Assembly: GCA_030656575.1 (NCBI GenBank) | Contig: JAUSPO010000157.1 | Coordinates: 1 to 46,435 of the forward strand | Reading direction: 5' to 3' | DNA: 46,435 nucleotides | Source of the DNA: Bacillota bacterium | GTDB lineage: Bacteria > Bacillota > Dethiobacteria > DTU022 > UBA8154 | Shown here: positions 13,566 through 36,768 of the stretch, one piece after another | How the letters are laid out: each line of letters begins with the position of its first letter | Position numbering within the stretch: the first letter of the stretch is position 1 | Notes under the pieces: generated by a model | Databases searched by the model: none | What the model saw: the letters and a program-made list of their open reading frames with translations, nothing else | What the model was told of the DNA's origin: nothing | Program-made: the position numbers and the translations under genes

Positions 13566-13602
13566 TTTTTTTCTCCTTTCATTTTGAGTGCCTAAGAAAG
13601 TC

Positions 13603-15503: not shown

Positions 15504-16523
15504 TTATTTAATCCAACCTTTTTCTTGATAATACTTTAATGCACCGGGATGGAAGGGAACACCTAAATCTACAGCAAGATCTTCAGGTATAACATCCTTC
15601 ATCGCCGGATTTACTTCTTTAACAAAATCAAAATTTTCTACCAATACTTTTGTCATTTCATATATAAGATCTTCAGGCATAGATCTGTGAACTGCTATCG
15701 ATATAGTAGTTGCTAACGTTGGTATATCCTGATCAACACCCCTATAACCTCCTCCTTTAAGAATTGAAGGAACTAATGCAGGGCGCAACTTACGAATAGC
15801 TTCTACTTCCCCTGGAGTAAAGCCTATAAAGCTTACATCTCTTGCCATGGCTGCATCTACAAAAAGTGCATAGGGCATAGATGTTACCAAATGAATGGCA
15901 TCAATTCTACCATTCTTAAATTCCTCAACTAAATCTGCAAATCCCGCATGGACTATCTCCACCTTATTGATGTCTACACCCAATGCCTCAAATATAACTC
16001 TTGAGGTAGTTTCAGGGGTACCACCTCTAGGACCCACACCAAGTCTCTTCCCTACCAAATCTTGTATACTATTAATTCCTCCATCTTTATTTACCATGAA
16101 CTGCACATGCCGAGGCATAACACTTGCCAGAAGAAAAACATCTTCTGTCTTACTGGTAAAAGGTTCTCTTCCCGCATAACCATCCTGCAAACCAAGACCA
16201 GTGGGTAGTCCCATTTCTGCCTTTCCTTCTTCAACACCCATTACACAAGCTAATCCAGCTCCTGGCAAAACAGAGATGGTGTCAATTTGAGGGATATGCT
16301 TTTCCCAATTATTAACTAATCTTACGGCTAATGGATATAGGTCTCCTGATGGTTCCCCTGCCATAAAATCCAGTGAATACTTCTCAATTTGTTTTTCCTG
16401 TTTCGTTTGTTCATCCTGTTTTGTTGGGGCAGTGGATGATGAACAACCAAACATTGACATCAATAATAAGACTATGATTACTAGTACTAAAATTTGAACT
16501 TTATTTTTTAATAAATTTGACAT
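15504..16523 (-). CDS. TAXI-family TRAP transporter solute-binding lipoprotein
   Basis: 339 residues. The N-terminus is a lipoprotein signal: a basic start, a ~17-residue hydrophobic core and a lipobox ending MFGC at Cys27. It is followed by a Ser/Thr/Lys/Gln/Glu linker and a TAXI-type binding domain (FMAGEPSGDLYPLA, VLPGAGLACVMGVEEGKAEMGL, VGPRGGTPETTSR). TAXI proteins bind dicarboxylates, glutamate or other organic acids and feed TRAP permeases. The ATG overlaps the permease stop (TAAATG), and AAAGGAGG lies inside the end of the permease gene, so the two are translationally coupled. It would be anchored outside the membrane. The substrate is presumably the acid degraded by the neighbouring decarboxylase genes (inference). 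Confidence 0.92.
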   Translation of the reverse strand: MSNLLKNKVQILVLVIIVLLLMSMFGCSSSTAPTKQDEQTKQEKQIEKYSLDFMAGEPSGDLYPLAVRLVNNWEKHIPQIDTISVLPGAGLACVMGVEEGKAEMGLPTGLGLQDGYAGREPFTSKTEDVFLLASVMPRHVQFMVNKDGGINSIQDLVGKRLGVGPRGGTPETTSRVIFEALGVDINKVEIVHAGFADLVEEFKNGRIDAIHLVTSMPYALFVDAAMARDVSFIGFTPGEVEAIRKLRPALVPSILKGGGYRGVDQDIPTLATTISIAVHRSMPEDLIYEMTKVLVENFDFVKEVNPAMKDVIPEDLAVDLGVPFHPGALKYYQEKGWIK

Positions 16524-18434
16524 TTAAAAAGCCTCCTTTAATTGATTAGTTTTTTTACTATAATACAGATTAATGGCTAAACCTAAACAACCTAATGTCA
16601 CCCCCCCAACATCTGTTATTAATCCTGGGAATATTAGCAACACCCCCCCCCCCATACAAAAGAACTGTGAAATCCATGACATCCGAACAAATGCATATTT
16701 GCTTAAACCACAGGTTACAAGAGAAACTCCAAGAAAGGCCGTTATAGATGACATAATAATATTTGCCGGCGTGTCCAATAATAATAAGCCAGGAGCCAAT
16801 ACAAACATAAAAGGAACAATGTATGCAGAAAAACCTAACTTACTTGCAGTTACAGCAGTTTGAATAGGATTACTTCCTGCCAAACCAGCAGCAGCATAAG
16901 CAACTAATGCTACCGGGGGAGTGATAACAGCAATAGATGCAAAATACATGACAAATATATGTGCTAAAAATGCAATCTGATTTCCTGCCAAGTGGCTGAT
17001 ACCTAAGGTCACAGCTTCTGCCTGAAGCACTTTACTTAATGCTGGTATAGTAATTGCAACCTGGAGAATATAGGAAGCAGATGCTGGCAATCCCATCCCC
17101 AGGATCAAGGTAAGTAGCATTGTAAGTAAAAGTAATACAAAAAGATTTTGCCCCGAAACTTCAATGATTAGATTTCCCATTCTAAGCCCTAGACCGGTTA
17201 AAGAAAAAATACCACTAATCATCCCAGCCGTAGCCAAGCTAGAACCAACTACCAGAGAACTTAAAGCTCCTTCTTTTAAACCGTCTAAAATATCATTAAA
17301 TCCTATCCGTGTAAGTCGTGAGAAAAAAGAAACCAGAATCGTAGATAACAAGCTATAAAAGCAGGAAAACATGGGTGAAAAGCCTCTTATGAGCAAATAT
17401 AGCAGTACTAAAATTGGTATAAGTAAATGAAATCTAATTTTTAACTCTTTTTTCCAATCTGGGACTTCCTCTTTTTTCAACCCTTTTAATCCTAGCTTTA
17501 CAGCTTCCAGGTGGACGGCCAATCCTATGCCCCAATAATATAGTAAGGCAGGAATTAATGCATAAGCAGCAATACGAATATATGGAATGCCTGTATATTC
17601 GGCCATCATAAAGGCCACAACTCCCATTAGAGGCGGCATAATTTGACCCCCTGTTGATGCTACAGCTTCAACAGCACCCGCAAAATGAGGAGAATATCCT
17701 AATTTTTTCATCATTGGAATGGTAAAGGAACCGGTGATTAATACATTAGAAATTGGACTGCCACTAATGGCGCCCATTAAACCACTAGCTACAACTGCAA
17801 TTTTAGCTGGCCCACCTGTGGTTCTCCCGGTTAATCCTGAAGCTACGTTCATGAAAAGTTCACCTAAACCAACTTTAACCAAAAAAGAACCAAAAAGTAT
17901 AAAAAGAAAGACGTAAGTGGCAGAAACACCAAGAGGCATTCCAAAAACACCACCTGTAGTTAGGTATTGAATATCAAGTAGCAAATCAATACTATATCCA
18001 CGATGTCTTAATATACCTGGTAGAAAGGGACCTAAAAAAGCATAAGAAAACATCAATAGAGCTACAATAGGCAGTATTATGCCTATTGTTCGCCTTGTTG
18101 CTTCCAATACAACTACTACAAATACTATCCCCAGGATTATTTGGAGACCCGTAAGAGGGGTAACGTAACAAAATCGCTCGTAAACTAAGTAACTATAATT
18201 TAAGAAAATATAACCTATAGACAATACCGCTAATGTTAATGGTAACAAAACCTTAATATTATCTACTATTTTTAGATAGTTATATTTTTCATTACTAATC
18301 AATATTACTAGGATTACAATGAAAAATAGGTGAATGGAGCGTTGTAATAACGGGTCCATAACACCAAATATAACTGTATATAGATGAAAAACACTCATGC
18401 AAATGGCAATAATTCTTATAAGCCTTTTAAACAA
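16524..18434 (-). CDS. TRAP transporter permease, fused small and large membrane subunits (DctQM type)
   Basis: About 636 residues and some 16-18 hydrophobic segments. An N-terminal four-helix (DctQ-like) portion is fused to the large DctM-like portion, with GLMGAISGSPISNVLITGSFTIPMM and GMGLPASASYIL motifs. This is the form that usually partners TAXI binding proteins. It uses an ion gradient to import organic acids. The frame opens at TTG 18449, but GGGAGG within that stretch places the better start at TTG 18434, 7 bases away. A run of eleven G on the coding strand (16643-16653) encodes consecutive glycines near residue ~600 and could be prone to slippage. It is co-transcribed with the TAXI gene and perhaps with the genes upstream. 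Confidence 0.92.
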   Translation of the reverse strand: MFKRLIRIIAICMSVFHLYTVIFGVMDPLLQRSIHLFFIVILVILISNEKYNYLKIVDNIKVLLPLTLAVLSIGYIFLNYSYLVYERFCYVTPLTGLQIILGIVFVVVVLEATRRTIGIILPIVALLMFSYAFLGPFLPGILRHRGYSIDLLLDIQYLTTGGVFGMPLGVSATYVFLFILFGSFLVKVGLGELFMNVASGLTGRTTGGPAKIAVVASGLMGAISGSPISNVLITGSFTIPMMKKLGYSPHFAGAVEAVASTGGQIMPPLMGVVAFMMAEYTGIPYIRIAAYALIPALLYYWGIGLAVHLEAVKLGLKGLKKEEVPDWKKELKIRFHLLIPILVLLYLLIRGFSPMFSCFYSLLSTILVSFFSRLTRIGFNDILDGLKEGALSSLVVGSSLATAGMISGIFSLTGLGLRMGNLIIEVSGQNLFVLLLLTMLLTLILGMGLPASASYILQVAITIPALSKVLQAEAVTLGISHLAGNQIAFLAHIFVMYFASIAVITPPVALVAYAAAGLAGSNPIQTAVTASKLGFSAYIVPFMFVLAPGLLLLDTPANIIMSSITAFLGVSLVTCGLSKYAFVRMSWISQFFCMGGGVLLIFPGLITDVGGVTLGCLGLAINLYYSKKTNQLKEAF

Positions 18435-18496
18435 TGTTATCCCTCCCAACTATTGACTCTCCAGATTTACCCATTCAAATTCATCTCTAAACAATA

Positions 18497-21290: not shown

Positions 21291-21731
21291 TGTTAAGCCT
21301 CCCTTGTCTATTAATATTGTTAAAAAAAGTTCCATAGGATTGTACGAACTAATTTTGCCTGAAATTTTATCATTTTTATTCGATAATCCTTTGGTCTCTG
21401 TTATCTCAAAAAGCGTAACACAAAACAAACATATATAAAAATATTTGAGTTATAAAAGAACAACCTTATCGCAAAATAATTATATATTTTAATTTGATTT
21501 AATTAAATAGCAATATTTTGTCTTTTTAATCTTCTTTGCTGAAAATCTCTTTCTCATAGAAAACCAACATGCACAAGCAAACTCAATGAAGCTATTAATC
21601 CAAATTATAAGTAAACGAGATAATCCATGTCTTAACAATGGGGGGCAAAAAAGATTCACAAATCTTCCTCTTGATCAAAATACGGTTTAAACAATACATT
21701 GATTCAATACATTTATCCTTATATTTAACCT
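21291..21731. other. 441-base intergenic region upstream of UbiD1
   Basis: A+T-rich stretch between araC and UbiD1. I find the UbiD1 ribosome binding site and a short hairpin with T-run after araC (21645-21667), but no -24/-12 promoter of the kind seen elsewhere in this cluster. UbiD1 is therefore probably driven by another sigma factor, possibly with the adjacent AraC-type protein. Confidence 0.4.
21645..21667 (-). terminator. Weak terminator after the AraC-type gene
   Basis: On the minus strand AAGATT-TGTG-AATCTT is followed by a run of T. The stem is only 6 bp, so efficiency is doubtful. Confidence 0.4.
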
Positions 21732-22470: not shown

Positions 22471-22500
22471 CAAAAAATCAGCTATTGCTTTTGATTTTTT
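22471..22500 (-). terminator. Rho-independent terminator after UbiD2
   Basis: AAAAAATCA (22472-22480) and TGATTTTTT (22492-22500) form a 9-bp stem overlapping the UbiD2 stop codon. On the minus strand the second arm supplies the T-run. It would separate UbiD2 from araC, at least partly. Confidence 0.5.
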
Positions 22501-23945
22501 TACTTTAACAAATACCCCCACTTATCCAAAGTCCTTTTTTTACGCTCGGGACTGGGTACGTTAACCATGGGAAATTCATCCTTCCAGTCGTAAGGCCTGG
22601 TAGCATCAATTATGGCTCGGGAATTCCACAGCCTGCCTTTTTCCTTATCTTCAGGACTGATACGGGGATCGAGATGAGTACTCCATGCACGATTAATGAT
22701 ATCAATAGAAGTAGCCGGATCTGAGCGAGTACACACTGCCCACATCAATTCATCGAGGTTGGTAACATCCACGTCCTCATCCACAACGATTACATAACGC
22801 CCGCAGTAAGCACCCACATGGCACTGGGAAGCTACATGTCCGGCCTGCATCGCATGCCCTGGATAGCGCTGCTTAATGGCAACCGCTAATAACAAACGGG
22901 AGCTTCCTGCTTCATGACCCCAAACAGCTTTAATGTCCGGAATACCTGCTTTTTCCATTTCTTCTTTGAGTAAGGGAGAACGCATAAAAGCACGGTAAAA
23001 GGCAATTTCATCAGGAGGCCGGTTAGGAGGGCAGCCCAAAATGATCGGATTATTACGGTGATAAACTGCCTTAACTTCAATTCTGGGTTCCTTGCGCGAA
23101 CCACTGGCATAATAACCGGTCCATTCTCCAAAGGGCCCTTCTTCTTTTAAGTCATCATAATGGGCAAAACCCTCCAAAACGATCTCTGCATCAGCGGGGA
23201 TCGGGAGTCCTGTATATTTTCCTTTTATTACCTTAAATGGTTCGCCACGTACTCCACCCGCCCAGTCATATTCACTCAGGCCGTATGGCAGTTCTGTGCA
23301 TCCGGCCAGATAAAGGAGGGGGTCACCTCCGACAACCACTGCTACAGGACAGGGTTCTTTACGATCGAAATATTTATCTCTGTGGATACGCCCGTGTTTA
23401 CCGGGTGATATATAGAAGAATACGTGTTTTTCGTCGTCTACCATCACCCGATAGGTGCCAAAATTAACCCATTTTTCATCCGGATCAATAGTTATATCAT
23501 AACTACCGGTCCCGATATAACGACCGCCATCAAATTCATGCCACATGGGAACTGGAAATTCCAATACATTTACATCATCACCTTCATGCACATTTTCCAA
23601 AATTGGGCCATCATCAACATATTGGGGTGGGATAGGTTTACTATTTTTAAATTTTCTGGCTATGGCTTCACTTAACCCCAGCTTTCCCAAACCCTGAGGC
23701 AGACCAGTTGCAATAGCAAGTCTTTGTTCAGTTCTTAAAGCGTTTACCAGGACTCTGTATCCTGAAGGGTAACCAGGGATATTGTCAAACAGAACCGCTG
23801 GACTGCCAGAAGTCTGGTGAAGCAGCTCTGCCGCCATACCTATATCTTCCTCCCAGGAAGCACCATCAACTACTTCTAATTCTCCGGCTTCTTTTACCAT
23901 TTCCAGAAACTCGCGAAGATCCTTATATGCAACTTTTTCAGACAT
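22500..23945 (-). CDS. ubiD: UbiD-family prenyl-FMN-dependent decarboxylase (UbiD2)
   Basis: 481 residues with a complete active-site set: Arg166 in GTYRVMV, and Glu269 and Glu274 in EGPFGEWTGYY. It is collinear with UbiD1 with almost no gaps; most differences are conservative, and the C-terminal PSPERKK..GYLLK tail is shared. Such closely related copies either act on different isomers or form a dosage pair. The start ATG at 23945 follows AAGGAGG by 7 bases, which excludes the slightly longer TTG frame. It lies 12 bases downstream of the CodY-like regulator, so the two are co-transcribed. Both UbiD1 and UbiD2 look like free-acid decarboxylases or carboxylases by motif; the substrate is unknown. 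Confidence 0.93.
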   Translation of the reverse strand: MSEKVAYKDLREFLEMVKEAGELEVVDGASWEEDIGMAAELLHQTSGSPAVLFDNIPGYPSGYRVLVNALRTEQRLAIATGLPQGLGKLGLSEAIARKFKNSKPIPPQYVDDGPILENVHEGDDVNVLEFPVPMWHEFDGGRYIGTGSYDITIDPDEKWVNFGTYRVMVDDEKHVFFYISPGKHGRIHRDKYFDRKEPCPVAVVVGGDPLLYLAGCTELPYGLSEYDWAGGVRGEPFKVIKGKYTGLPIPADAEIVLEGFAHYDDLKEEGPFGEWTGYYASGSRKEPRIEVKAVYHRNNPIILGCPPNRPPDEIAFYRAFMRSPLLKEEMEKAGIPDIKAVWGHEAGSSRLLLAVAIKQRYPGHAMQAGHVASQCHVGAYCGRYVIVVDEDVDVTNLDELMWAVCTRSDPATSIDIINRAWSTHLDPRISPEDKEKGRLWNSRAIIDATRPYDWKDEFPMVNVPSPERKKRTLDKWGYLLK

Positions 23946-23957
23946 AAACAATCCTCC

Positions 23958-24890: not shown

Positions 24891-25763
24891 TTAACTTATT
24901 AAGCATTTCTTAACTAAATCGGGAACTTCAAAGAGCAGTTCAGCTACCTGTACATTTGCTGCCTCAAGGGCCTTTACCTTGTTGGCAAATGTGCCTCTGC
25001 CCCTCTCAATGATCGCTCCGGCATGACCCATACGTTTACCGGGGGGCGCACTTTTCCCTGCCAGATATGCAATGACGGGCTTAACAGGGTTTTCCCTGAT
25101 ATATTCTGCAGCTTCCTCTTCTGACGTGCCGCCGATTTCACCGATCATAATGATCGCTTTTGTTTGATCATCCTGATTAAATTCTCTTAACACATCCAAA
25201 AAATTAAGTCCGGTAACCCTGTCTCCACCAAGACCTACCACTGTACTGGTTCCGATACCCTGTGCCAGCAGGCTGCCAACTATCTCATAAGTAAGTGTTC
25301 CGCTGCGGGAAATTACTCCCACCGGGCCATCTTTGAAAACATGGTTGGGAGCAACACCAATCTTGCAACCGCGGGAGGTCACGATACCGAAGGTATTGGG
25401 CCCCACTACTACTGCCCCCTGCCGGCGGGCATAATCTACAAGCCTGATTTCATCATGCAGTGGAATGTGCTCCGTAATACAGCCTATTACCTTTATTCCA
25501 GCATCCACGGCCTCGACCACCGCATCCAAGGCAAAAGGAGCAGGGATATAAATGGCCGTTGCATCGATCTGATGCTGCTCGCAGGCTGCAGCAACAGTAT
25601 CATAAACAGGTATTCCCTCCACCTGTTGTCCGCCTTTTCCAGGAGAAACCCCGGCAACAATATTGGTACCAAAGGATAGCATCTGGCGTGTATGAAAACT
25701 ACCCTGATTACCAGTAATCCCCTGTACTACTACTTGTGCATTATGAGCAACATAGATTGCCAT
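24891..25763 (-). CDS. sucD: Succinyl-CoA synthetase (ADP-forming) alpha subunit
   Basis: 290 residues, the normal SucD length. It has the CoA-binding Rossmann start (VVVQGITGNQGSFH), GPNTFGIV near the CoA site (commonly GPNTPG or GPNCPG), SRSGTLTYE, and the phosphohistidine in RMGHAGAI. With SucC it converts succinate, CoA and ATP to succinyl-CoA, or the reverse. It overlaps the end of sucC by 23 bases with its own GGGGGAG site inside sucC, so the pair is translationally coupled. Downstream of two class III CoA-transferases, its likely job is to recharge succinate to succinyl-CoA as CoA donor rather than to run a TCA cycle (inference). Confidence 0.95.
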   Translation of the reverse strand: MAIYVAHNAQVVVQGITGNQGSFHTRQMLSFGTNIVAGVSPGKGGQQVEGIPVYDTVAAACEQHQIDATAIYIPAPFALDAVVEAVDAGIKVIGCITEHIPLHDEIRLVDYARRQGAVVVGPNTFGIVTSRGCKIGVAPNHVFKDGPVGVISRSGTLTYEIVGSLLAQGIGTSTVVGLGGDRVTGLNFLDVLREFNQDDQTKAIIMIGEIGGTSEEEAAEYIRENPVKPVIAYLAGKSAPPGKRMGHAGAIIERGRGTFANKVKALEAANVQVAELLFEVPDLVKKCLIS

Positions 25764-26877
25764 TGCATTCTCCCCCTCTGGACAGCTCTACAGCTTTTAT
25801 TGCCGCTTCCTGCATATTACGGTAGGCTGTTATTCCGTTTTTCGCTAAAATTTTAAGACCCAATTCCTCGTTGGTACCGCTCATGCGCAAAACTACCGGA
25901 ACAGTGATCTCCTGCATTTTCTTGACCTGTACAAAAGCGTTGGCCACATCATCACAACGGGTAATACCACCAAAAATATTTATAAAAATAACTTTAGGGT
26001 TAGCAGCCAGCAGTATTTCCAGTGCTTTTGACGTCTGTTCCACATTGGCACCGCCGCCCGCATCCAGGAAATTTGCAGGACTTCCACCATAAAATTGGAT
26101 CGTATCCAGTGTAGCCATGGTAATTCCGGCACCGTTTGCCATGATAGCAATATCACCACCAAGCTCAACATAAGAAAGGCCGATACTTCTGGCTCGTTCT
26201 TCCAGAGGGCTGCCTTCAGTTACACGGGGGTATTCTTTTTGGCGAAAGTAAGCATCATCATCCACGGTTACTTTTGCATCCCCGGCAACAAAGCCCTTAT
26301 CGCAAAGGAACAGGGGGTTAATCTCTACCAGTTCAGCATCTGATTCTGCAAAAACACGAAAAAGTTTCGTTACAATATCCGCAAACTGTGTGATTGCCTT
26401 GCCCTGCAACCCTAACAGTCGTCCTATCTCTCTCCCAACCGAGGGGAAAATTCCTGTACTTAAGTTTACCGGCCATTTAATAATTCTCTCCTCCGGCACT
26501 TCCTCAATATCCATACCCCCTTGGGATGATGCTAAGATCACAGGCCTTCGCAGAGAACCATCCACCGTAATAGCCAGATAAATCTCCTGCTGTATCTCCA
26601 GCTTTTCTTCTACCAGTATCTTTTCCACTTTATTACCGTTCAGCTCTAAACCGAGTAGCTGTCCCGCAAATAGTTCAACCTCTCTAGGGGAAGAGGCAAA
26701 CTTAATACCTCCTGCCTTACCCCTTTTTCCGCTTAATACCTGCGCCTTCAGCACCACCTGGTTTAAACCTGAGCTGACCATTACAGCATCCCATGCATTT
26801 GAGACAACCTTGCCTCGGGGAACGGGAATCCCATGGCGTGAAAACAGCTCTTTTCCTGCATATTCAAATAGCTTCAT
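25741..26877 (-). CDS. sucC: Succinyl-CoA synthetase (ADP-forming) beta subunit
   Basis: 378 residues. It has an ATP-grasp domain at the N-terminus (MKLFEYAGKELFSRHGIPVPRG, VVLKAQVLSGKRGKAGGIKF) and the C-terminal ligase domain with GGGAN and FINIFGGITRCDDVA motifs. The start ATG at 26877 follows GAGGAGG with 7-base spacing; the six extra codons of the open frame are not needed. It lies 33 bases after a CoA-transferase gene and overlaps sucD. Placement within the CoA-transferase-UbiD3 operon ties it to succinyl-CoA regeneration for substrate activation. Confidence 0.95.
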   Translation of the reverse strand: MKLFEYAGKELFSRHGIPVPRGKVVSNAWDAVMVSSGLNQVVLKAQVLSGKRGKAGGIKFASSPREVELFAGQLLGLELNGNKVEKILVEEKLEIQQEIYLAITVDGSLRRPVILASSQGGMDIEEVPEERIIKWPVNLSTGIFPSVGREIGRLLGLQGKAITQFADIVTKLFRVFAESDAELVEINPLFLCDKGFVAGDAKVTVDDDAYFRQKEYPRVTEGSPLEERARSIGLSYVELGGDIAIMANGAGITMATLDTIQFYGGSPANFLDAGGGANVEQTSKALEILLAANPKVIFINIFGGITRCDDVANAFVQVKKMQEITVPVVLRMSGTNEELGLKILAKNGITAYRNMQEAAIKAVELSRGGECNGNLCCS

Positions 26878-26910
26878 GACACTTCCTCCTCGCAAACTAT
26901 GGCAACTGTC

Positions 26911-28128
26911 TTAACCGATAATATTTTGCTCCAGAAGTTTATTGTATTCGTCCTCTGAAAAGCCCAGCAGATTAGTGAAAAAATAGTAGTTGTGTTCCCC
27001 TATACAGGGACTGGGACGGTCAATTACCGCGGGCGTCTCTGAAAGTTGAAAAGCCGGTGACTCGTAGTTAAAACTACCCATTTCGGGGTGTTCAAGTTTA
27101 CACCAGATATGGCGGTGTTTTAACTGAGGGTCATTGTAAAGATCTTTCATATTATTTACCACACCGGCGCGAAGACCTACGGACTGCAACCTCTCCATTA
27201 GCTGCTCTGCTGTAAAGCTTGCTGTCCATTCAGCCATATGACTGTAGAGTTCATCCTCATTGCTCTTGCGTCCAGGCAGAGTGGAAAATTTGGGATCATG
27301 GGTCCACCTGGGGCTACCCATGACTTCTACCAGCTTCTCCCATTCCCGGTCGCTGAAAATGCCGATTGCGCACCAGCGATCCTCGCCCAGGCAGGGATAT
27401 ACATCATGAGGCGCCGCTGTGGAATGGCGATTACCCATACGGGTCGCAACCCTGTTGTTTATTAGATAATCCAATAACACCGGGGCAATAAACTGCAGGC
27501 CTCCTTCATACTGTGCCAGGTCAATATACTGGCCTTTACCCGTCCGGCGGCGATAATCCAGTGCTGCCGTCACGGATATAATCCCATAGCCTACACCGAT
27601 GTAATCTATATAAGGGCCATATAATAGAATGGGTGAATCATCAGGATACCCTGTTAAATGTGTAAAACCACTCAGAGAAGTTAACTGCGACCCAAAACCG
27701 GGATGATTGGCATGGGGGCCTGTCTGCCCCTGATTGCAGGAACCCACCATGATCAGGTCGGGTTTAATCTCCACTAATGCTTCGTATCCCAGGCCTAGCT
27801 TTTCCATGGTTCCCGGTGTAAAGTTCTCTATTACCACATCCGCCCAGGCAATTACTTTTTGGGCAATTTCTGAAGCCCCTGATGCCTTTAAATTGATAGT
27901 AATATCATACTTATTATTGTTGTGGATGGCAAAACAGCCGGAGCGATTCAGGCCGGGTTCATTGTCCGTATAAGGAGGATAATGAGTTCTAAAACCGTCG
28001 GGCCTGGCGAACGATTCCACTCGAACTACTTCCGCTCCAAAGTCTGCCATCATCTTACCAACTCCTGGCCCAGCAGCAAACCCACCGAATTCCGCTACTT
28101 TTATCCCCTCAAATACACGCTTTTCCAT
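26911..28128 (-). CDS. Class III CoA-transferase, subunit with catalytic Asp
   Basis: 405 residues of the CaiB/BaiF/Frc family. It has the N-terminal GIKVAEFGGFAAGPGVGKMMADFGAEVVRVE pattern, the VVIENFTPGTMEKLGLGYE helix, and Asp175 (YGPYIDYIG), which aligns with the aspartate that carries the acyl/CoA anhydride in formyl-CoA transferase (Asp169). A TGKGQYIDLA segment follows. The family moves CoA between carboxylic acids without ATP. The next upstream gene is a related family member that lacks this Asp, so the two probably form a heteromer. With sucCD behind it, succinyl-CoA is the likely donor. The acceptor is unknown; precedents for paired subunits include benzylsuccinate and phthalate CoA-transferases. 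Confidence 0.9.
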   Translation of the reverse strand: MEKRVFEGIKVAEFGGFAAGPGVGKMMADFGAEVVRVESFARPDGFRTHYPPYTDNEPGLNRSGCFAIHNNNKYDITINLKASGASEIAQKVIAWADVVIENFTPGTMEKLGLGYEALVEIKPDLIMVGSCNQGQTGPHANHPGFGSQLTSLSGFTHLTGYPDDSPILLYGPYIDYIGVGYGIISVTAALDYRRRTGKGQYIDLAQYEGGLQFIAPVLLDYLINNRVATRMGNRHSTAAPHDVYPCLGEDRWCAIGIFSDREWEKLVEVMGSPRWTHDPKFSTLPGRKSNEDELYSHMAEWTASFTAEQLMERLQSVGLRAGVVNNMKDLYNDPQLKHRHIWCKLEHPEMGSFNYESPAFQLSETPAVIDRPSPCIGEHNYYFFTNLLGFSEDEYNKLLEQNIIG

Positions 28129-28162: not shown

Positions 28163-29425
28163 TTAAATTATTCCGGACTGTTTCATAATTCGAAGATCTT
28201 CGTTGTTAAAACCAAGTTCTTCAAAAATTTCTTCATTGTGCTCTCCGATCAAGGGCGCACGACGACGAATTCCGCAGGAAGCGTCAGAAAACTTGCAGAA
28301 ACCTCCTGGATAGGTAATTTCCGTCCCCAGTTCAGGATGCTCCACTTTCTGCCAGTATTCTCTGGCAGTAAGCTGGGGGTCTTCAAAAATTTCTTCAGCT
28401 GTAGCCACAGGATAACCTAACATCCGTCTTTTTATTGCTTCCTTAAAAAACTCTTTCTTAGTTTTTGTTTTAAAAAATTTTGCAGCAGGTGATTCTATCT
28501 GATCGATATCCTCTTGTGTAACAGTTGCAATATCAAAAGTACTCCAATCCTTGTTTTTAAGGTAGTCGGTAGCCATATCCTCTTCATTCATCCATTCCGT
28601 AAGGGCCTTATTGGTGATCCGCCCTGCCGGTCCACCATATACAATGAAGTTGATATAACCGTCCTTACATTCATATATAGTGCGCATCTTTGCACCTGTA
28701 ACACTGCGCCCGCTCATAATAGGGCCTTCTCGTGTAGGAATGACCCGGTTTACATCCCAGAAAGTGGGAGCATGGGCTAAAGTACAGAGCATGCTGGCCT
28801 GGGCGGAAACATCCACATGCTGACCCTTCCCTGTACTGCCGCGATAATAATGGGCCAACAGTGTACCAGCCGCTGCCTGCATTCCTGTCCACATATAGGA
28901 TTGTGGAACTGATACCCGTATCGGCGGCCTGTCAGGGTACCCCGCCAAAGACATCATGCCGCACATGGCCATAGTTATGAGATCAGATGCCTGATAATGA
29001 CTGTAAGGACCTGTCTGACCAAAAGGAGAAATGGATGTTAAAATTACCTGAGGGTTTATTTGTTTTAACTGTTCATATCCCAGCCCCAGTCCTTCAAGAT
29101 AACCAGGAGGAAAAGATTCAATCACAAAATCAGCAGTTTTTACAAGACGGCAAAATATATCTCTTCCAGTTTTCTCCTCCAGGTTAAGTGTAATGCCGCG
29201 TTTATTGTTATTATAGGCGAACCAGTAAAGACTTTTTTCATTGTCAGGCTGATCTTTAAAAAATGGTCCAAAGTTTCGTGCCTGATCACCGCCAGGTTTC
29301 TCAACCTTAATAACGTCTGCCCCCAAATCGCCGAGGATCTTTCCACATAAAAATCCATTTTCATTTGTTAAATCGAGGGCGCGAAAGGCTCCAAGCATCC
29401 AGTTTTCTTCATTTGTAAAGCTCAT
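28163..29425 (-). CDS. Class III CoA-transferase family subunit lacking the catalytic Asp
   Basis: 420 residues of the CaiB/BaiF family: RALDLTNENGFLCGKILGDLGADVIKVEKPGG, SFPPGYLEGLGLGYEQL, SPFGQTGPYSHYQASD, TGKGQHVDVSA. Alignment to the neighbouring subunit with no gaps between GYPD and TGKGQ puts Tyr177 where the nucleophilic Asp should be, so this chain alone should not catalyse classical transfer. It probably supplies structural or substrate-binding surfaces to a heteromer with the 26911-28128 product. The frame extends to 29485, but a ribosome binding site (AAGGA, 9-base spacing) favours the ATG at 29425. It lies 34 bases upstream of its partner and ~75 bases downstream of UbiD3. Confidence 0.88.
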   Translation of the reverse strand: MSFTNEENWMLGAFRALDLTNENGFLCGKILGDLGADVIKVEKPGGDQARNFGPFFKDQPDNEKSLYWFAYNNNKRGITLNLEEKTGRDIFCRLVKTADFVIESFPPGYLEGLGLGYEQLKQINPQVILTSISPFGQTGPYSHYQASDLITMAMCGMMSLAGYPDRPPIRVSVPQSYMWTGMQAAAGTLLAHYYRGSTGKGQHVDVSAQASMLCTLAHAPTFWDVNRVIPTREGPIMSGRSVTGAKMRTIYECKDGYINFIVYGGPAGRITNKALTEWMNEEDMATDYLKNKDWSTFDIATVTQEDIDQIESPAAKFFKTKTKKEFFKEAIKRRMLGYPVATAEEIFEDPQLTAREYWQKVEHPELGTEITYPGGFCKFSDASCGIRRRAPLIGEHNEEIFEELGFNNEDLRIMKQSGII

Positions 29426-29499
29426 ATACAGCCATCCTTTCCTTAAGTGGTAAAGGGATGTAATGGAGGACAGGAAGTCCTCCATCTACTTTTTTGATA

Positions 29500-31038
29500 T
29501 TAAATACCCGTTTCAGAGAACCATTTGGCATATGCACTCATAGAGTTTACAGCTTTCTCGGCCTCATCCTTATCAAACCATTTGGCAAGATCCACGAGTT
29601 TAACAGGGAATTCAGGACGATCAAAAGCCCACTTGTAGCGGTAAGGTGTCGTAGCATCAAAACCCATGCCTCCTGCATACTTGGCTTCGGATCGTACCCA
29701 CTGGACACCTTCTCCGGCAGCAGAACGTTCGGCTGGTTGGAAAGTCTGACCCATACCGCCGGGATTTACGATTAATAGATCTTTATCCACATCGACTCGG
29801 GTATTAATTGCCCACATCACATCTTCTGCCAGGTAAATGTTTATATCCTCATCCACCGCTACAGCAACCCGCATGCCCTGGGAAATAGTAAGTGCTGCTG
29901 TTAACAAGTTTTTCTGCCAGCCTTCATCCCTTTGGCGGCGCTTTTTAACCGAAAAAACACAACCTCCCCAATCGGTGCTTTCGATGGGAATATAAACATC
30001 CTGAACTAAGCCTGGAACCATCCTTTCAAAGAGTTCCAGCAACGAAGCTTCTCTAACCTTACAATCAATATGGTGAGTATCGAAACCGTGAACAATGGTG
30101 GGATAGTAAATGGGCTTGTCTTTGCGGTGAGTAATGGCTGTTATAATGAACCTGTATGTTCTGTAAGCTTTTCCCATATATCCTGACCACTCTGGATGGA
30201 ATGGATATTTCCCCTGTACATTATCTCTTTCCGCATCAGGATGTTCCCATGCTTTTTGGGTCGTATCCAGGTATCCTTCAATAACAATTTCGGCGTTAGC
30301 TATGGCGTACGCATCTACCGTCTTAGCTTTGACAAGATCTACCGGATAACCCTGTATTGCCCCGGCAATGGCGATTTCATCACAGCCAGGCGGAAGAATT
30401 GCGTAGTTAAAGCCAGAACCTGCCATTATTGTGCAGGCTGGAGGGACTCCCATATTAATGGTCATGTGAACATGCTCTTTTTTTATAAATTCAGTAACCG
30501 CCATATCCGTATGGGATCCCGGAGCTATCTGAAAGGTGCCCCAATCTTTGGCTTTGAAAAAGCTCATGCGGTTGTAACTGATATGGTGTCCGCCGAAGAA
30601 ATATTTTCCACTCATAAGGGTATTACCGCCGCCCAGGGTGCGTCCTGGATCCTTTTCGGTATGAGAAATCATAGGAACAGATTTCCAAACATCGATATCA
30701 TTACCAGTATTTACTACCTCCTGACAGGGGGCATTTTTCACTATTCTGGGAGGAATGGGATTGCGCAAAGCATCCCTGACTTTGTGTTTAAAATTTTTAG
30801 GTTCATCGACACCAAAAATTTTAGCTATTCTGCTTTCTTGAGCCATGAGATTTGTAAACAGTCTATTCTCGGGATATCCTTTTACGTTATTAAAAAGTAA
30901 TGCAGGGCCGTTATCAAGCTTTTTTTGGATTCCAGCCATCTCCAGATGGGGATCAATCTCTACATCTGTTACCAGTATTTCGCCTTCTTCTTTCAAAAAT
31001 TCCAGCGTCGACCTTAAACTCGATATGTCTTTTGCCAT
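29500..31038 (-). CDS. Divergent UbiD-family decarboxylase (UbiD3)
   Basis: 512 residues, clearly UbiD fold (NPIPPRIVKNAPCQEVV, GGGNTLMSGKYFFGG, GCDEIAIAGAIQG) but from a different branch than UbiD1/2. Arg157 (YNRMSFF) and Glu283 (HPEWSGY) of the catalytic triad are visible, but the first Glu of the E-x4-E pair is missing: the region reads GKYPFHPEWSGY, with a one-residue longer loop. It heads the operon with the two CoA-transferases and sucCD, so it may act on the CoA ester, as phthaloyl-CoA decarboxylase does (inference). AGGAGG precedes the ATG at 31038, and a sigma-54 type promoter lies ~150 bases upstream. Confidence 0.9.
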   Translation of the reverse strand: MAKDISSLRSTLEFLKEEGEILVTDVEIDPHLEMAGIQKKLDNGPALLFNNVKGYPENRLFTNLMAQESRIAKIFGVDEPKNFKHKVRDALRNPIPPRIVKNAPCQEVVNTGNDIDVWKSVPMISHTEKDPGRTLGGGNTLMSGKYFFGGHHISYNRMSFFKAKDWGTFQIAPGSHTDMAVTEFIKKEHVHMTINMGVPPACTIMAGSGFNYAILPPGCDEIAIAGAIQGYPVDLVKAKTVDAYAIANAEIVIEGYLDTTQKAWEHPDAERDNVQGKYPFHPEWSGYMGKAYRTYRFIITAITHRKDKPIYYPTIVHGFDTHHIDCKVREASLLELFERMVPGLVQDVYIPIESTDWGGCVFSVKKRRQRDEGWQKNLLTAALTISQGMRVAVAVDEDINIYLAEDVMWAINTRVDVDKDLLIVNPGGMGQTFQPAERSAAGEGVQWVRSEAKYAGGMGFDATTPYRYKWAFDRPEFPVKLVDLAKWFDKDEAEKAVNSMSAYAKWFSETGI

Positions 31039-31185: not shown

Positions 31186-31203
31186 ATGCAAGTTCTATAC
31201 CAA
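31186..31203 (-). promoter_or_regulatory. Sigma-54 type promoter of the UbiD3-CoA-transferase-sucCD operon
   Basis: The complement reads TTGGTATAGAACTTGCAT: TGG at -24 and TTGCA at -12, with GG and GC separated by exactly 10 bases. It agrees at 14 of 18 positions with the promoter upstream of the Fe-S subunit gene (34760-34777), which strengthens both calls. Confidence 0.65.
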
Positions 31204-31272: not shown

Positions 31273-31288
31273 GTTTCATTTATGAAAC
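31273..31288. promoter_or_regulatory. Candidate enhancer palindrome upstream of UbiD3
   Basis: GTTTCATTTATGAAAC is a perfect 7-base inverted repeat around TT, 70-87 bases upstream of the -24 element. It carries the TGAAAC half-site also found upstream of the alcohol dehydrogenase promoter. It is a likely binding site for the PrpR-type activator. Confidence 0.5.
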
Positions 31289-31420
31289 AATCTATTCTTT
31301 TATTGAAACATTGGCTCAGAGAATTCTTTGCCTCTCTTTGCCTTTCTATGCCTCAATTATCATACAATTCTTTCTGCCAGACTTAATAATTCCAAAATTG
31401 AAACAATCTCCTCTAACAAA

Positions 31421-32008
31421 TCACCCCCTGCAGCTTATTTTTATTTTTTCTTCAACACCTTGCCAGCGGGAAAAAAGATTATGGTCAATATCGAATTGGT
31501 CCAGCACTTTTCCTACAGTCTGATTAATAAGATCCTGCATTGTTTGCGGATGATTATAAAATGCAGGCATTGGCGGTAAGAGTATACCACCTGCTTCAGT
31601 CACCATTGTCATTAAACGCAGGTGCCCTAAATGAAGGGGAGTCTCTCTTACCAGTAATACCAGCTTTCTTCTTTCTTTAAGGACAACATCGGCAGCTCTT
31701 ATCAAAAGATTTGTATTAAATGAGTTGGCTATGGCTGAAAGGGTTTTTATGGCGCATGGAGCAATAATCATTCCGCTTGTTTTAAAAGAACCGCTGGAGA
31801 TGGAAGCCCCGATATTATTGATATCGTGGACTTCCGCAGCCATTTTCTCCACTTCTTCGACTTCATAATTTGTTTCAAGTTGGATCGTTCTTTTGCTGGC
31901 TTCTGAAATAATTAAATGGGTCTCAATTTCAAGCTCATGTAATATTTCCAACATTTTTATACCATAAATTGCACCTGTAGCACCGGAAATTCCTACAACA
32001 ATTCTCAA
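31421..32008 (-). CDS. ubiX: UbiX-family flavin prenyltransferase
   Basis: About 195 residues. The Rossmann-like N-terminus RIVVGISGATGAIYGIKML, the central ISSGSFKTSGMIIAPCAIKTLSAIANSF and VLLVRETPLHLGHLRLM are diagnostic of UbiX/Pad1, which prenylates FMN with dimethylallyl phosphate to make the cofactor of UbiD enzymes. It should serve the three UbiDs of the cluster. A GTG at 32017 would overlap its own ribosome binding site; the TTG at 32008, 8 bases after AAGGGGG, gives the usual UbiX N-terminus. It lies ~50 bases downstream of the flavoprotein gene and is probably the last gene of that operon. Confidence 0.93.
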   Translation of the reverse strand: MRIVVGISGATGAIYGIKMLEILHELEIETHLIISEASKRTIQLETNYEVEEVEKMAAEVHDINNIGASISSGSFKTSGMIIAPCAIKTLSAIANSFNTNLLIRAADVVLKERRKLVLLVRETPLHLGHLRLMTMVTEAGGILLPPMPAFYNHPQTMQDLINQTVGKVLDQFDIDHNLFSRWQGVEEKIKISCRG

Positions 32009-32056
32009 GTTTGTCACCCCCTTGCTTGCGGAAGATTTAAAATAATATAAATAATA

Positions 32057-33724
32057 TCACGCAAGATACATGCCATTTTGTCCGAAATCTTTTGACGACC
32101 CACAAAAAGTTTGCATTTCCGGAACTTCACGGTGGGTATAATTGGGTAGAAGAAGGGGGGAAATCCTGCCCCCTGTATCTATACCATTATTTTCCAGCTG
32201 GCAGTGATAATTGTGAACATGATTAAGAGTTAGCTTTTTTAGTTTTACTTCCTGACACTTCTGCGCAGCATGAGAACCGGTACGGCATCCAAACACAAGG
32301 ATATCGAGAAGCGAGTTCCCCATAAGCCTGTTACGGCCATGCACACCTCCGGAGTTTTCACCTGCAACGTAAAGGTTCTCAATATTCGTTCGACCGTTAT
32401 CATCAAGCAAAAGACCACCATTTTGATAATGAAGAGTAGGATAAATAAGTATGGGCTCCCTGCGAATATCAAGGCCAAACCGTTTAAACTGCCTAATTAT
32501 GGCCGGAAACCGTTTCTCAATAGTCCCTTCACCATGAATCAGATCGATAAGAGGGGAATCAAGCCAGATACCTACCGTACCTGTTGGAGTGGCAATGCCA
32601 AGCTTCCTTTCGCTGCACTCCCTGATAATAGCGGCAGACTGCAAATCCCTTGTCTCTAAGTGATAAACAAACTGTTTACCGTTAATATTGACCAGTTTAG
32701 CACCAAGCCCGCGGAATTTTTCTGTAACCAGCATGCCCAGAATCTCGGAAGGATAAGCCACACCTGTAGGATGGTACTGGATAGCATCCATAAATGCCAT
32801 CCTGGCACCAGCACGATAACCCATTACTAACCCGTCGGCTGTCGCACCATAATGGTTGGTAGTGGGAAAACCCTGGAAATGAAGTCTCCCTGAACCACCT
32901 GTACTTAAAATTACCGTTTTAGCACGAGCGACAAGATACTCTTCCGTTTCCAGATTGTAAAGAATTGCTCCTGCAGCTTTGCCTTCTTCGTCCAGCAGAA
33001 GTTCCACTGCGGGACAATACTCCAGAATTTTAATACCCTTGTTAATAGTTTCATCTCTTAAGGTGCGCATAATCTCCACCCCTGTATAATCACGGGCGCT
33101 ATGCATCCTTCTTCTGGAGGTACCACCGCCGTGGAAAGTAATCATTGTGCCATCTTCTTCTTTATCGAACATAATGCCAATGTCTTCCAGCCATTTAATG
33201 ATTTTGGGAGCATCATTAACTAAGGCATAAACCAATTCAGGTATGTTAGCAAAATGTCCTCCACCCATAACATCGAGGTAATGGATTGCAGGTGAATCGT
33301 TCGTTTTATCAGCAGCTTGTATACCACCTTGTGCCATCATTGTATTGGCGTCACCAAAGCGCAGCTTAGTAACAAGAGCAACATCCGCTCCCTGCTCCTG
33401 CGCCATAAGAGCGGCCGCAGCACCAGCTCCCCCCCCGCCAATAATTAGAACATCCACATCGCAGACAATTTCGCTCAGGTCAAGTTCAATATGTTCTATC
33501 ATACTGCGAGCTTCAAGAAGATCAGCCAGTTCCCGGGGAACCCTATCCCCCTTATTTACTCCTACCTGGAGCTCCCGGAAACCCTCTTCAATAAAATCAG
33601 GATGAAATTTTTTAAGCAGATCCTGACCTTCTTCAGTAGTAATGCGGGGGAAATCAACGCCCAGCCTCATAGGTCGCGTTTCTTCAACTTTTTTAATCAG
33701 CTCCTTCATTTGAGAAGTATACAT
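32057..33724 (-). CDS. Fumarate reductase/succinate dehydrogenase-like flavoprotein subunit
   Basis: 555 residues. An ~85-residue N-terminal extension precedes the FAD-binding VDVLIIGGGGAGAAAALMA. The covalent-flavin/active-site family features follow: DANTMMAQGGIQ, HSARDYTGVEIMRTLRD, QYHPTG, and RNRLMGNSLLDILVFG near the C-terminus. The family interconverts fumarate and succinate or reduces related enoates. With the Fe-S subunit upstream and no membrane anchor gene nearby, it is probably a soluble complex. It may feed the succinate/succinyl-CoA cycle of the CoA-transferases or reduce/oxidise a pathway intermediate (inference). No strong ribosome binding site is seen at 33724; MKELIKK six codons inside is an alternative start. 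Confidence 0.88.
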   Translation of the reverse strand: MYTSQMKELIKKVEETRPMRLGVDFPRITTEEGQDLLKKFHPDFIEEGFRELQVGVNKGDRVPRELADLLEARSMIEHIELDLSEIVCDVDVLIIGGGGAGAAAALMAQEQGADVALVTKLRFGDANTMMAQGGIQAADKTNDSPAIHYLDVMGGGHFANIPELVYALVNDAPKIIKWLEDIGIMFDKEEDGTMITFHGGGTSRRRMHSARDYTGVEIMRTLRDETINKGIKILEYCPAVELLLDEEGKAAGAILYNLETEEYLVARAKTVILSTGGSGRLHFQGFPTTNHYGATADGLVMGYRAGARMAFMDAIQYHPTGVAYPSEILGMLVTEKFRGLGAKLVNINGKQFVYHLETRDLQSAAIIRECSERKLGIATPTGTVGIWLDSPLIDLIHGEGTIEKRFPAIIRQFKRFGLDIRREPILIYPTLHYQNGGLLLDDNGRTNIENLYVAGENSGGVHGRNRLMGNSLLDILVFGCRTGSHAAQKCQEVKLKKLTLNHVHNYHCQLENNGIDTGGRISPLLLPNYTHREVPEMQTFCGSSKDFGQNGMYLA

Positions 33725-33827
33725 AATGTCTGTTCCGGAGGAAGAACCGGATTTAAACCTCCCTTTAACTTTTTTAAAATTTCAATGGCAAGCAGCAGTT
33801 ATAAAGGTTTTTAAAAAAGCAGGCAGG

Positions 33828-34508
33828 TTATGCTTCAATGTCCCGGCTGTAATAATGATTATTTAGCTCCTGAATGTCCAGTTTCATTAGCCGCTGCAGT
33901 TCAGTCTCATATTTCCCGCCTTGAATCTCATCAACCCTTTGCTGCAATTGCAGATCCCTGGGTAATAGGTATTTGCCAAAAAGGCGACGGGCCAAAATCC
34001 CGACATTGTACTGGGCTATTTGTGCCGGACAACGGTATGCGCAGAGGCCGCACATGATACAGTCAAAGGATTCAAATGCACATCCGGCAATATCCCCCTT
34101 CCGCGCATATGCAATATACTGCTTGACATTAATGTTTTGGGGACATACCTTGGTACAGGAATTGCATCCTATACATCGGTAGATTTCCGGGTAATAGGCT
34201 TTAATAGATGAAGCGCTGGGGGGTAAATTATCAATATTATAAATTCCTTTTAATGGGGGATAAAATGGAATTTGCGCAAGGTGCATCCCAGACTCTACCC
34301 TGATCTGACAGGCCAGGCCAACCTTGAATTCATGATCGCCGGCTATACGGTAAACCGTAGCGCAGGCACCGCAAATTCCGGTTCGGCAGCCGCAGCCTCG
34401 TTTTAACTGGTAACCGGCAAACTCCATTGCACGCATGATAGTTAACGATTCAGGTACGGCATATTTCTTGCCCATGATATAAATATCGATTAATGATTCC
34501 TGAGGCAT
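33828..34508 (-). CDS. Fumarate reductase-like iron-sulfur subunit
   Basis: 226 residues. An N-terminal [2Fe-2S] ferredoxin domain (CGCRTGICGACATV, then LAC) is followed by two Cx2Cx2Cx3CP sets (CIGCNSCTKVCP and CIMCGLCAYRCP), each suited to a [4Fe-4S] cluster, where classical SdhB/FrdB has one 4Fe and one 3Fe centre. A basic C-terminal region follows. It would carry electrons to or from the flavoprotein encoded ~100 bases downstream. The open frame begins at TTG 34535, but AAGGAG 10 bases before the ATG at 34508 favours that start. It is the first gene after a sigma-54 type promoter, with an unusually long ~240-base leader. Confidence 0.87.
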   Translation of the reverse strand: MPQESLIDIYIMGKKYAVPESLTIMRAMEFAGYQLKRGCGCRTGICGACATVYRIAGDHEFKVGLACQIRVESGMHLAQIPFYPPLKGIYNIDNLPPSASSIKAYYPEIYRCIGCNSCTKVCPQNINVKQYIAYARKGDIAGCAFESFDCIMCGLCAYRCPAQIAQYNVGILARRLFGKYLLPRDLQLQQRVDEIQGGKYETELQRLMKLDIQELNNHYYSRDIEA

Positions 34509-34620
34509 ATCTTTCGAACTCCTTAAAACCTTCAATTTTATGCTTAAAATTAATAAACGAAAGAATTTAATTAAATATCGTAACTACTCAGAGTAAAGCA
34601 TTAGCAAGAAATGGGACCTG

Positions 34621-34698
34621 AGACATGGGGACGGTTCGAGCGTCACCGCAGCGTAGCGGAGGTCCGCCAGGGAAGACGATGGAACCGTCCCCATGTCT
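34621..34698. repeat. Palindromic GGGGACGGTTC repeat element, copy 1
   Basis: The arms 34621-34637 (AGACATGGGGACGGTTC) and 34682-34698 are perfectly complementary over 17 bases, enclosing GAGCGTCACCGCAGCGTAGC and related sequence. The same arm core and the GTGACGCT/GCTACG inner motifs recur at 37789-37974, marking a dispersed repeat family. This copy lies in the leader of the Fe-S subunit transcript. Confidence 0.75.
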
Positions 34699-34759
34699 TG
34701 CGTAGCGAAAAGCAGAAGGTAAAATGGAAACTGTTGGTCTGAGTAGTTACTAAATATTT

Positions 34760-34777
34760 ATGCAAAATACATACCAA
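34760..34777 (-). promoter_or_regulatory. Sigma-54 type promoter of the Fe-S subunit-flavoprotein-ubiX operon
   Basis: The complement reads TTGGTATGTATTTTGCAT, with GG and GC 10 bases apart and TTGCAT at -12. It is closely matched to the UbiD3 promoter. It fires away from the adjacent activator gene. Confidence 0.62.
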
Positions 34778-34824
34778 TCTACGGTAAATAGTTTATAATA
34801 AATTTGAAAGGTGGAGGGCTAAGT

Positions 34825-36768
34825 ATGGCTATCGAAATCTGTTTCATTTCTCCATACCCGGAACTCACCCGGGCAATCGAAGAAATTCTTCCCAGCTTAC
34901 CTGAAAAAGTGTTATTGGAAGAAGGGGCTATTGAACAGGCCGAGCCAATAATAGAAAAGGTTGAAAAGCAGGGAGTGGAAGTAATAATTACCACTGAAGG
35001 TAATGTCAGGCACCTGCGAAAAGTATTTGATATTCCTTTAATAGCCATTCCTGTAAGTGTTTTTGATACTGTCTTCGCCCTTAACCAGGCAAAAAAACTC
35101 TTTGGAGAACCCCTAGCTTTGTTTGAATTTCGTTCTCCCAATCCCCGCTTTCATGAAATCAAAGAGGTTATAGATGTTAAAATGGAACAATTTGTTTACC
35201 TAAATGAACAGGATGGCCTGGCAAAGCTGAAAGAAGCCCAAAAAAGGGGTTTTAAAGCTGCTGTCAGCGGAGGAGTTATTGCCCGTATGGCCCGTTCGCA
35301 GGGTTACCCCTGTATTCCCATTATTCCCATCACTGTAGGTAAAGATGCCATCATAAAAGCTTATTCCCACGCTAAAGAAGTAGCCTGGGCGAGACAAAAA
35401 GAACGTCGGGATGCTTTCAAATTAAAAGCTATTGTAGATTACTCCTTTGAAGGGATCATCACCGTAAATGCTCAAAATATAATAACCGTTTTTAACCCAA
35501 TAGCTGAAAAGATTTTAGAAATGAAAGCAAATGAAGTTATAGGAAAACCTATGGATTACATAGTTTCTGCTAATCGCATCCAACCACATATAATAGAAAC
35601 GGATAAAATATGTAATTTTAAAACAAAACAAGTACTCGTTAACAAAGTACCGATTTATGACCACGGCCAGATAGTAGGTTCTATTTTTGCTTTTCATGAA
35701 GTTAACCGCATCCAGTCCATGGAGGAAAAAATACGACGTGCCAATCATGAAAACAAATTATATGCCATATATCATTTTGAGAATATCATCGGTAAAAGCA
35801 GAATATTTTTTGAGACAATCCGCCAAGCCAAAAAATATGCCCATACTGATGAGACCGTATTGATTACGGGAGAAACAGGGACTGGAAAGGAGCTTTTTGC
35901 TCAGAGTATTCATAATGAGAGCAGCAGATCCTCACACTCTTTTGTTGCCGTAAATTGTGCCGCACTGTCTCCCGCACTCCTGGAAAGCGAATTATTCGGC
36001 TATGCCGAGGGAGCGTTCACGGGCGCAAAGAAAGGCGGCAAAAAAGGCCTGTTCGAATTGGCTCATCGCGGTTCTATTCTCCTTGATGAGATCGGTGAGA
36101 TTTCCCTTGATGTTCAATCCAAGCTGTTAAGAGTGCTGCAGCAAAGGGAAGTCATGCGCATTGGTGATAATAAACTTATTCCAGTCGATGTACGTGTTAT
36201 TTCGGCTACCAACCGTGATCTCTTAAAAGATGTGGAACAGGGCAAATTCCGCCGTGATCTTTACTATCGGCTTAATATTTTGAAATTAATCGTTCCGCCG
36301 TTAAGAGAAAGAAAAGAAGATATCCTTCCTTTGGCTTTTTACCTCTTAAGAAACACCACTAATGGCGAATCCGTTTCTTTGCTGGAAGAAACCTTAACTG
36401 AACATCGAGATTTATTTGAAGGATATGAATGGCCTGGCAATGTTCGAGAACTGGAAAACCTTATTAAACGGCTTAGTGTATTTGCTGACCCTGACTCCAC
36501 GGTTAAATCACTGGGTAATCACATAAAAAAAATCCTGACGGATTTTAAAGGAGAAACAAAGGAAAGAGAAAATGGCTTCATGCAAATTGAAGTAAACGAT
36601 GGCTTAAAAAAGACTATGGAGAGGATTGAAAATCAGTTAATTACCGAGGAGTACGTACGTTTGAAAGGAGATAAAACAAAATTAGCTCAAAGGTTGGGTA
36701 TCGGCCGAACTACTTTGTGGCGCAAGTTACATGAAGCAGGAATAGAAGCTGATATAAAAAGACCCTAA
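34825..36768 (+). CDS. PrpR-type sigma-54-dependent transcriptional activator
   Basis: 647 residues and the only plus-strand chromosomal gene apart from the IS remnant. Domains in order: a PrpR_N sensor (~1-195, as in propionate-catabolism regulators), a PAS domain (~205-310), a sigma-54 interaction AAA+ domain with GETGTGKE (Walker A), GAFTGA, and LLDEIGE (Walker B), and a C-terminal Fis-type helix-turn-helix (TKLAQRLGIGRTTLWRKL). The ATG at 34825 follows GGTGGAGGG; the TTG at 34804 is a worse start. It is transcribed divergently from a -24/-12 promoter, and two more such promoters lie in the cluster, so it is probably the activator of all three. The inducer may be the substrate or a CoA ester (inference). 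Confidence 0.93.
   Translation: MAIEICFISPYPELTRAIEEILPSLPEKVLLEEGAIEQAEPIIEKVEKQGVEVIITTEGNVRHLRKVFDIPLIAIPVSVFDTVFALNQAKKLFGEPLALFEFRSPNPRFHEIKEVIDVKMEQFVYLNEQDGLAKLKEAQKRGFKAAVSGGVIARMARSQGYPCIPIIPITVGKDAIIKAYSHAKEVAWARQKERRDAFKLKAIVDYSFEGIITVNAQNIITVFNPIAEKILEMKANEVIGKPMDYIVSANRIQPHIIETDKICNFKTKQVLVNKVPIYDHGQIVGSIFAFHEVNRIQSMEEKIRRANHENKLYAIYHFENIIGKSRIFFETIRQAKKYAHTDETVLITGETGTGKELFAQSIHNESSRSSHSFVAVNCAALSPALLESELFGYAEGAFTGAKKGGKKGLFELAHRGSILLDEIGEISLDVQSKLLRVLQQREVMRIGDNKLIPVDVRVISATNRDLLKDVEQGKFRRDLYYRLNILKLIVPPLRERKEDILPLAFYLLRNTTNGESVSLLEETLTEHRDLFEGYEWPGNVRELENLIKRLSVFADPDSTVKSLGNHIKKILTDFKGETKERENGFMQIEVNDGLKKTMERIENQLITEEYVRLKGDKTKLAQRLGIGRTTLWRKLHEAGIEADIKRP

Follow-up and report, generated by a model that had tools for sequence, protein, structure and literature searches.

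A phthaloyl-CoA decarboxylase homologue with a probably displaced triad glutamate in a predicted phthalate operon of a Dethiobacter-related Firmicute

The third of three neighbouring UbiD-family genes (UbiD3) in the window, by which we mean the whole stretch of 46,435 nucleotides analysed here, raises the question of whether its product has lost a glutamate of the catalytic triad and which substrate it decarboxylates. That triad was defined as Glu277-Arg173-Glu282 in Fdc1 of Aspergillus niger, the activity of which requires both acidic positions (PMC5818171). A sequence-only reading of the window held that UbiD3 keeps Arg157 and Glu283 but has GKYPFHPEWSGY, with a loop one residue longer and no glutamate five residues before Glu283, where UbiD1 and UbiD2 have EGPFGEWTGY, and suggested that the change reflects a CoA-ester substrate or a different protonation route. 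The 512-residue open reading frame is present as described (Table 1), contains all three UbiD domains (PF01977, PF20695 and PF20696, all above cut-off), and on translation agrees with each of these residues, including the lack of glutamate at position -5 from Glu283. UbiD1 and UbiD2 do carry EGPFGEWTGY and the triads assigned to them, the numbering in UbiD2 being R168/E271/E276 from a TTG start and R166/E269/E274, as first given, from ATG. The source genome is a draft of 195 contigs with 3.4% estimated contamination.

In the UbiD proteins compared, a strand AE[IV]V[IL]EG is followed by the first triad glutamate, that of EGPFGE, 15 residues past the strand's first glutamate. Glutamate stands at this +15 position in UbiD1, UbiD2, phthaloyl-CoA decarboxylase (Pcd) and the protocatechuate decarboxylase AroY, and the +15 residue of UbiD3 is Glu265. 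Among 47 UbiDs, 42 have glutamate at +15 and four more have it at +16 or +17; the only one lacking it at all three positions is that of locus L009. Arg157 and Glu265 occupy invariant columns in MAFFT alignments of 13 and 22 UbiDs, and a profile made without the Pcd clade or AroY aligns the EGP glutamate with Glu265 of UbiD3 and with the matching glutamates of PDB 8OZ5, the Pcd of Aromatoleum aromaticum EbN1, and AroY. By alignment, Arg157, Glu265 and Glu283 correspond to Arg158, Glu266 and Glu284 of the Pcd structures 8OZ5 and 8PMK. The same profile places three members of the Pcd clade (L021, L024 and L025) differently in the loop, each having a glutamate at +15 or +16, so a profile by itself is a poor guide to the alignment between the two glutamates. 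AlphaFold models, whose input alignments comprised 22 sequences from the window and the loci and which were compared by their strand boundaries, show a 14-residue strand in UbiD3 (251-264) followed by Glu265 and a strand of the same length in UbiD2 (257-270) followed by Glu271. The Glu-Arg-Glu residues of UbiD3 (E265, R157 and E283) align with the family triad; judged from alignments and models, UbiD3 very probably keeps a complete triad, Glu265-Arg157-Glu283, with its first glutamate only displaced along the chain. The sequence-only reading had itself counted occupation of the missing position by Glu265 or Glu270 against its claim, and Glu265 does fill that register; neither the loss of a triad glutamate nor the different protonation route derived from it is supported.

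Seventeen residues lie between Glu265 and Glu283, against four in UbiD1 and UbiD2, so the insertion amounts to 13 residues rather than one, and the unusual loop is that of Pcd, its counterpart in 8OZ5 reading QGRFHFHPEWAGYMGKAYK. A genuine absence of the peripheral triad glutamate, with another residue or proton path used in its place, is very unlikely: it would accord with the lack of glutamate at -5, with the length and different sequence of the loop, and with the presence of Glu270, Phe280, Pro282 and Trp284, which all Pcd-clade members share and which are rare or missing at these positions in other UbiDs, but it conflicts with the register of Glu265, with the invariance of this residue throughout the family, with its place directly after the strand that in UbiD2 precedes Glu271, and with the occurrence of a displaced glutamate in AroY as well. 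The two glutamates of AroY, whose substrate is a free acid and whose catalytic acid is Glu289 (PMC5656893), are 12 apart, with 11 residues between them; a missing glutamate at -5 is therefore no mark of a CoA-ester substrate, and the loop itself was rejected as such a marker, its kind of displacement extending beyond CoA-ester UbiDs. It is also quite unlikely that the loop of the Pcd clade forms a CoA-ester-specific lid in which Glu270, and not Glu265, tunes the arginine and proton transfer proceeds unlike that in Fdc1. A false case of triad loss is removed, and a rule follows for UbiD enzymes: the first glutamate should be located by counting on from the strand ahead of it, rather than by stepping five residues back from the second.

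The suggested comparison with phthaloyl-CoA decarboxylases places UbiD3 among them. The closest solved structures are those of Pcd (8OZ5/8P02 and 8PMK, 500 bits; E 6e-149 for 8oz5), of which 8OZ5 and 8PMK come from cryo-EM, and AroY comes next at 170 bits. In a fold search with the UbiD3 model (VIA), 8oz5 ranks first (Z 45.1, rmsd 2.7 over 454 residues, 46% identity) and the next match other than Pcd is HmfF (Z 43.0); Foldseek agrees. Six Pcd-like sequences, including UbiD3, 8OZ5 and the EbN1 Pcd, form a single clade (support 100/100), within which UbiD3 and a 75% identical relative from a Dethiobacter metagenome-assembled genome join the 8OZ5/EbN1 pair, apart from the two other members of Firmicute origin, L024 and L025 (94/94). 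Were UbiD3 a common free-acid decarboxylase like AroY, neighboured by CoA-transferase genes through chance, one could account for the branching of AroY next to the Pcd clade (98/98, on a long branch) and for the shared P-E-[FW]-x-G-Y motif and displaced glutamate; this is extremely improbable given the bit scores above, the position of AroY outside the Pcd clade, which sets UbiD3 apart from the AroY lineage, and the finding of adjacent CaiB genes in 0 of 20 control UbiD regions. UbiD3 is most likely a phthaloyl-CoA decarboxylase by homology, and very probably a Firmicute addition to an already known kind of enzyme, not a triad variant.

Gene order agrees with this assignment. UbiD3 likely heads the CoA-transferase operon, as had been claimed, being the first of a tight series UbiD3-CaiB1-CaiB2-SucC-SucD with a sigma-54 motif in front. 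UbiX, UbiD3, CaiB1 and CaiB2 are 48%, 47%, 47% and 49% identical to their counterparts in the EbN1 phthalate cluster, so that the UbiX and the predicted phthalate-activating enzyme beside UbiD3 match EbN1 in both order and sequence. CaiB2 keeps an aspartate in the window and in EbN1 (GPYIDYIG and GPYIDFIA, respectively) at the position expected for the catalytic residue of class III enzymes, and the alignment shows tyrosine at this position in CaiB1 of both organisms; the pair is predicted, from sequence, to be a succinyl-CoA:phthalate CoA-transferase. The sucC-sucD order behind the caiB genes is kept in a related locus (L020; SucC 79% identical), and the SucD of the window is the only one above cut-off in its genome. 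CaiB or an ADP-forming acyl-CoA synthetase occurs near UbiD at all five Pcd-clade loci (window included), and neither of these nor SucCD occurs near UbiD in the 20 control regions from this and related genomes, a contrast that is only indicative because the loci are not independent and several controls have short flanks; PaaK-type ligases do adjoin other UbiDs. The TAXI-TRAP transporter of the window is a candidate for phthalate uptake, and transporters of this type follow the CoA-transferase genes in EbN1 and sucCD in L020.

Table 1. Coordinates of features of the window (L019, EbN1 phthalate cluster; L020, locus of a relative)
Feature	Position	Strand	Evidence
UbiD3, Pcd homologue, predicted triad Glu265-Arg157-Glu283	29500..31038	-	PDB 8oz5, Pcd clade
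Glu265 codon	30244..30246	-	Glutamate reported missing; counted from ORF start, alignments, strand boundary
Glu265-to-Glu283 stretch with 13-residue insertion EHPDAERDNVQGKYPFHPE	30190..30246	-	Pcd 8OZ5 has equal length
Sigma-54 -24/-12 motif TGGTATAGAACTTGCA before UbiD3	31187..31202	-	Exact consensus match
Palindrome TGTTTCATAAATGAAAC (candidate activator site)	31273..31289	-	Upstream of UbiD3 sigma-54 motif; 0.06 expected
UbiX flavin prenyltransferase (makes prFMN)	31421..32017	-	NCBIfam UbiX subfamily, 271 bits (cut-off 188)
CaiB1, class III CoA-transferase subunit	28163..29485	-	PF02515; 47% to EbN1 11561-12748 (L019)
CaiB2, class III CoA-transferase subunit	26911..28128	-	PF02515; 49% to EbN1 12745-13965 (L019)
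SucC, succinyl-CoA synthetase beta	25741..26895	-	TIGR01016, 407.6 bits, above cut-off
SucD, succinyl-CoA synthetase alpha	24891..25763	-	TIGR01019, 398 bits
TAXI-TRAP transporter (binding protein and fused permease)	15504..18449	-	TIGR02122 and TIGR02123 above cut-off
PrpR-like sigma-54 activator	34804..36768	+	73% to L020 7609-9549, whose best NCBIfam match is PrpR

A CoA-ester substrate is thus strongly supported by the Pcd clade and the two CaiB proteins, not by the loop that had first suggested it. Since UbiD3 and tested Pcd are only about 47% identical, the same mechanism could serve to decarboxylate a different aryl-dicarboxyl-CoA (isophthaloyl-, terephthaloyl- or a heteroaromatic CoA), and the Pcd-clade relatives L024 and L025 adjoin other CoA-activating enzymes; this is nevertheless unlikely, as both CaiB proteins are 47-49% identical to those of the EbN1 phthalate cluster and share with them the lack of the aspartate in one subunit, the EbN1 transferase is reported to be inactive with iso- and terephthalate (PMC13040137), and UbiD3 branches with tested Pcd apart from those two relatives.

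We consider it likely, with good confidence, that UbiD3 is a prFMN-dependent Pcd with a complete triad and a 13-residue insertion, acting between CaiB1/CaiB2 and BamBC in a pathway recharged by SucCD. CaiB1 and CaiB2 would transfer CoA from succinyl-CoA to phthalate, giving phthaloyl-CoA; UbiD3, with prFMN made by the adjacent UbiX, would convert phthaloyl-CoA to benzoyl-CoA, releasing the second carboxylate as CO2; BamBC and a ring hydrolase would process benzoyl-CoA further; and SucCD would regenerate succinyl-CoA from succinate, CoA and ATP. The conversion of phthaloyl-CoA to benzoyl-CoA by Pcd is characterised by dependence on Fe2+ and K+. Genes for BamB (799.5 bits), BamC (206.5 bits; both scored to 4z3w) and a ring hydrolase (568 bits, cut-off 464) are present in the genome, so that use of benzoyl-CoA by the host is indicated at the level of genes. 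An aldehyde oxidoreductase of the window (11748-13631) was considered as BamB and rejected, scoring 386 bits to aldehyde oxidoreductases and 168 to BamB. The host, an anaerobic bacterium, is probably able to degrade the plasticizer acid phthalate. According to one review (PMC13040137), all known o-phthalate clusters contain UbiX and UbiD. The same review describes phthaloyl-CoA as very labile, a property that fits the tight gene cluster. It reports the succinyl-CoA-dependent CoA-transferase route only from denitrifying bacteria, and ATP-dependent CoA ligases for the activation of phthalate by a sulfate reducer and of isophthalate by a fermenter. On the present reading, the succinyl-CoA-dependent route would extend to a Dethiobacter-related Firmicute that has a succinyl-CoA synthetase of its own, a local peculiarity being that the genome's only above-cut-off SucD, together with SucC, lies in the predicted phthalate operon behind a sigma-54 motif.

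Sigma-54 motifs are enriched in the window (4 against 0.25 expected; 0 of 100 shuffles), two of them lying inside genes and the second intergenic one at 34761-34776, in front of a fumarate-reductase-like gene pair. The site before UbiD3 was found with the IUPAC consensus and was missed by a stricter pattern; a scan of the window for sigma-70 promoters and terminators gave no more sites than in shuffles. L020 has sigma-54 sites at both corresponding places, including that before its Pcd gene, and a similar palindrome upstream of its promoter. The conjunction of sigma-54 motif, activator and palindromes in both loci indicates that UbiD3 likely heads its own transcript, with the PrpR-like protein as a candidate regulator of the operon. 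The fumarate-reductase-like pair consists of a flavoprotein resembling fumarate reductase/aspartate oxidase, with its N-terminus extended by 80 residues, and an iron-sulfur partner; it occupies 32057-34535 (minus strand) of the window and 3914-6279 (minus strand) of L020, behind a sigma-54 motif in each. Between the activator and the iron-sulfur genes lies an inverted repeat, GACATGGGGACGGTTC...GAACCGTCCCCATGTC (34614-34700), which may be a small mobile element or a repeat, and a transposase-like gene (39-1187, plus strand) lies at the contig edge.

UbiD1 and UbiD2 (19839-21428 and 22500-23951, minus strand) are 79% alike, and the EbN1 phthalate cluster contains a further UbiD (L019 4711-6225) that is 58-60% identical to them; UbiD2 has a 91% match in L101, and genes of this type recur beside Pcd in two phyla. 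In L025 (8458-12283) a Pcd-like gene is immediately followed by an ADP-forming acyl-CoA synthetase, possibly a further route of phthalate activation, and then by TRAP genes; in L024 (1146-18234) a Pcd-like gene lies between a PaaK-type ligase and CaiB, with two benzoyl-CoA reductase class I-like subunits and beta-oxidation genes nearby. Candidates for real triad variants are the UbiDs of two relatives (L039 979-2676 and L040 997-2562, minus strand), which have EGPAGSYTGYY, with serine at the expected catalytic Glu/Asp. The UbiD of L009, from the source genome itself (C122), reads Val-Asp-Pro where Glu-Gly-Pro would hold the first triad residue.

Compared with known systems, UbiD3 shares with Pcd (8OZ5, 8P02 and 8PMK) the fold, full-length identity of 46-47%, the 17-residue spacing of the glutamates and the loop QGxxxFHPEWxGYMGKAY, and differs in about 53% of residues and in its host, a Dethiobacter-related Firmicute and not a denitrifying proteobacterium. 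The EbN1 Pcd, like UbiD3, is adjoined by ubiX and two caiB genes, and the EbN1 plasmid cluster (NC_006824, L019) has the same ubiX-ubiD-caiB-caiB order as the window, along with TAXI-TRAP genes, which in EbN1 follow a transposase. The window alone has sucCD, the sigma-54 sites with the PrpR-like activator, and the fumarate-reductase-like pair, which is not seen in the EbN1 cluster; the latter, unlike the window, has a second Pcd-like gene (L019 1-1406, 48% identical to UbiD3). AroY (5NY5, 5O3M) resembles UbiD3 in its UbiD fold, displaced glutamate and PE[FW]xGY motif, but has a free-acid substrate, 28% identity and an insertion of 7 residues, not 13. Fdc1 of A. niger differs from UbiD3 in that its glutamates are five apart, its substrates are acrylic acids and its identity is about 23%.
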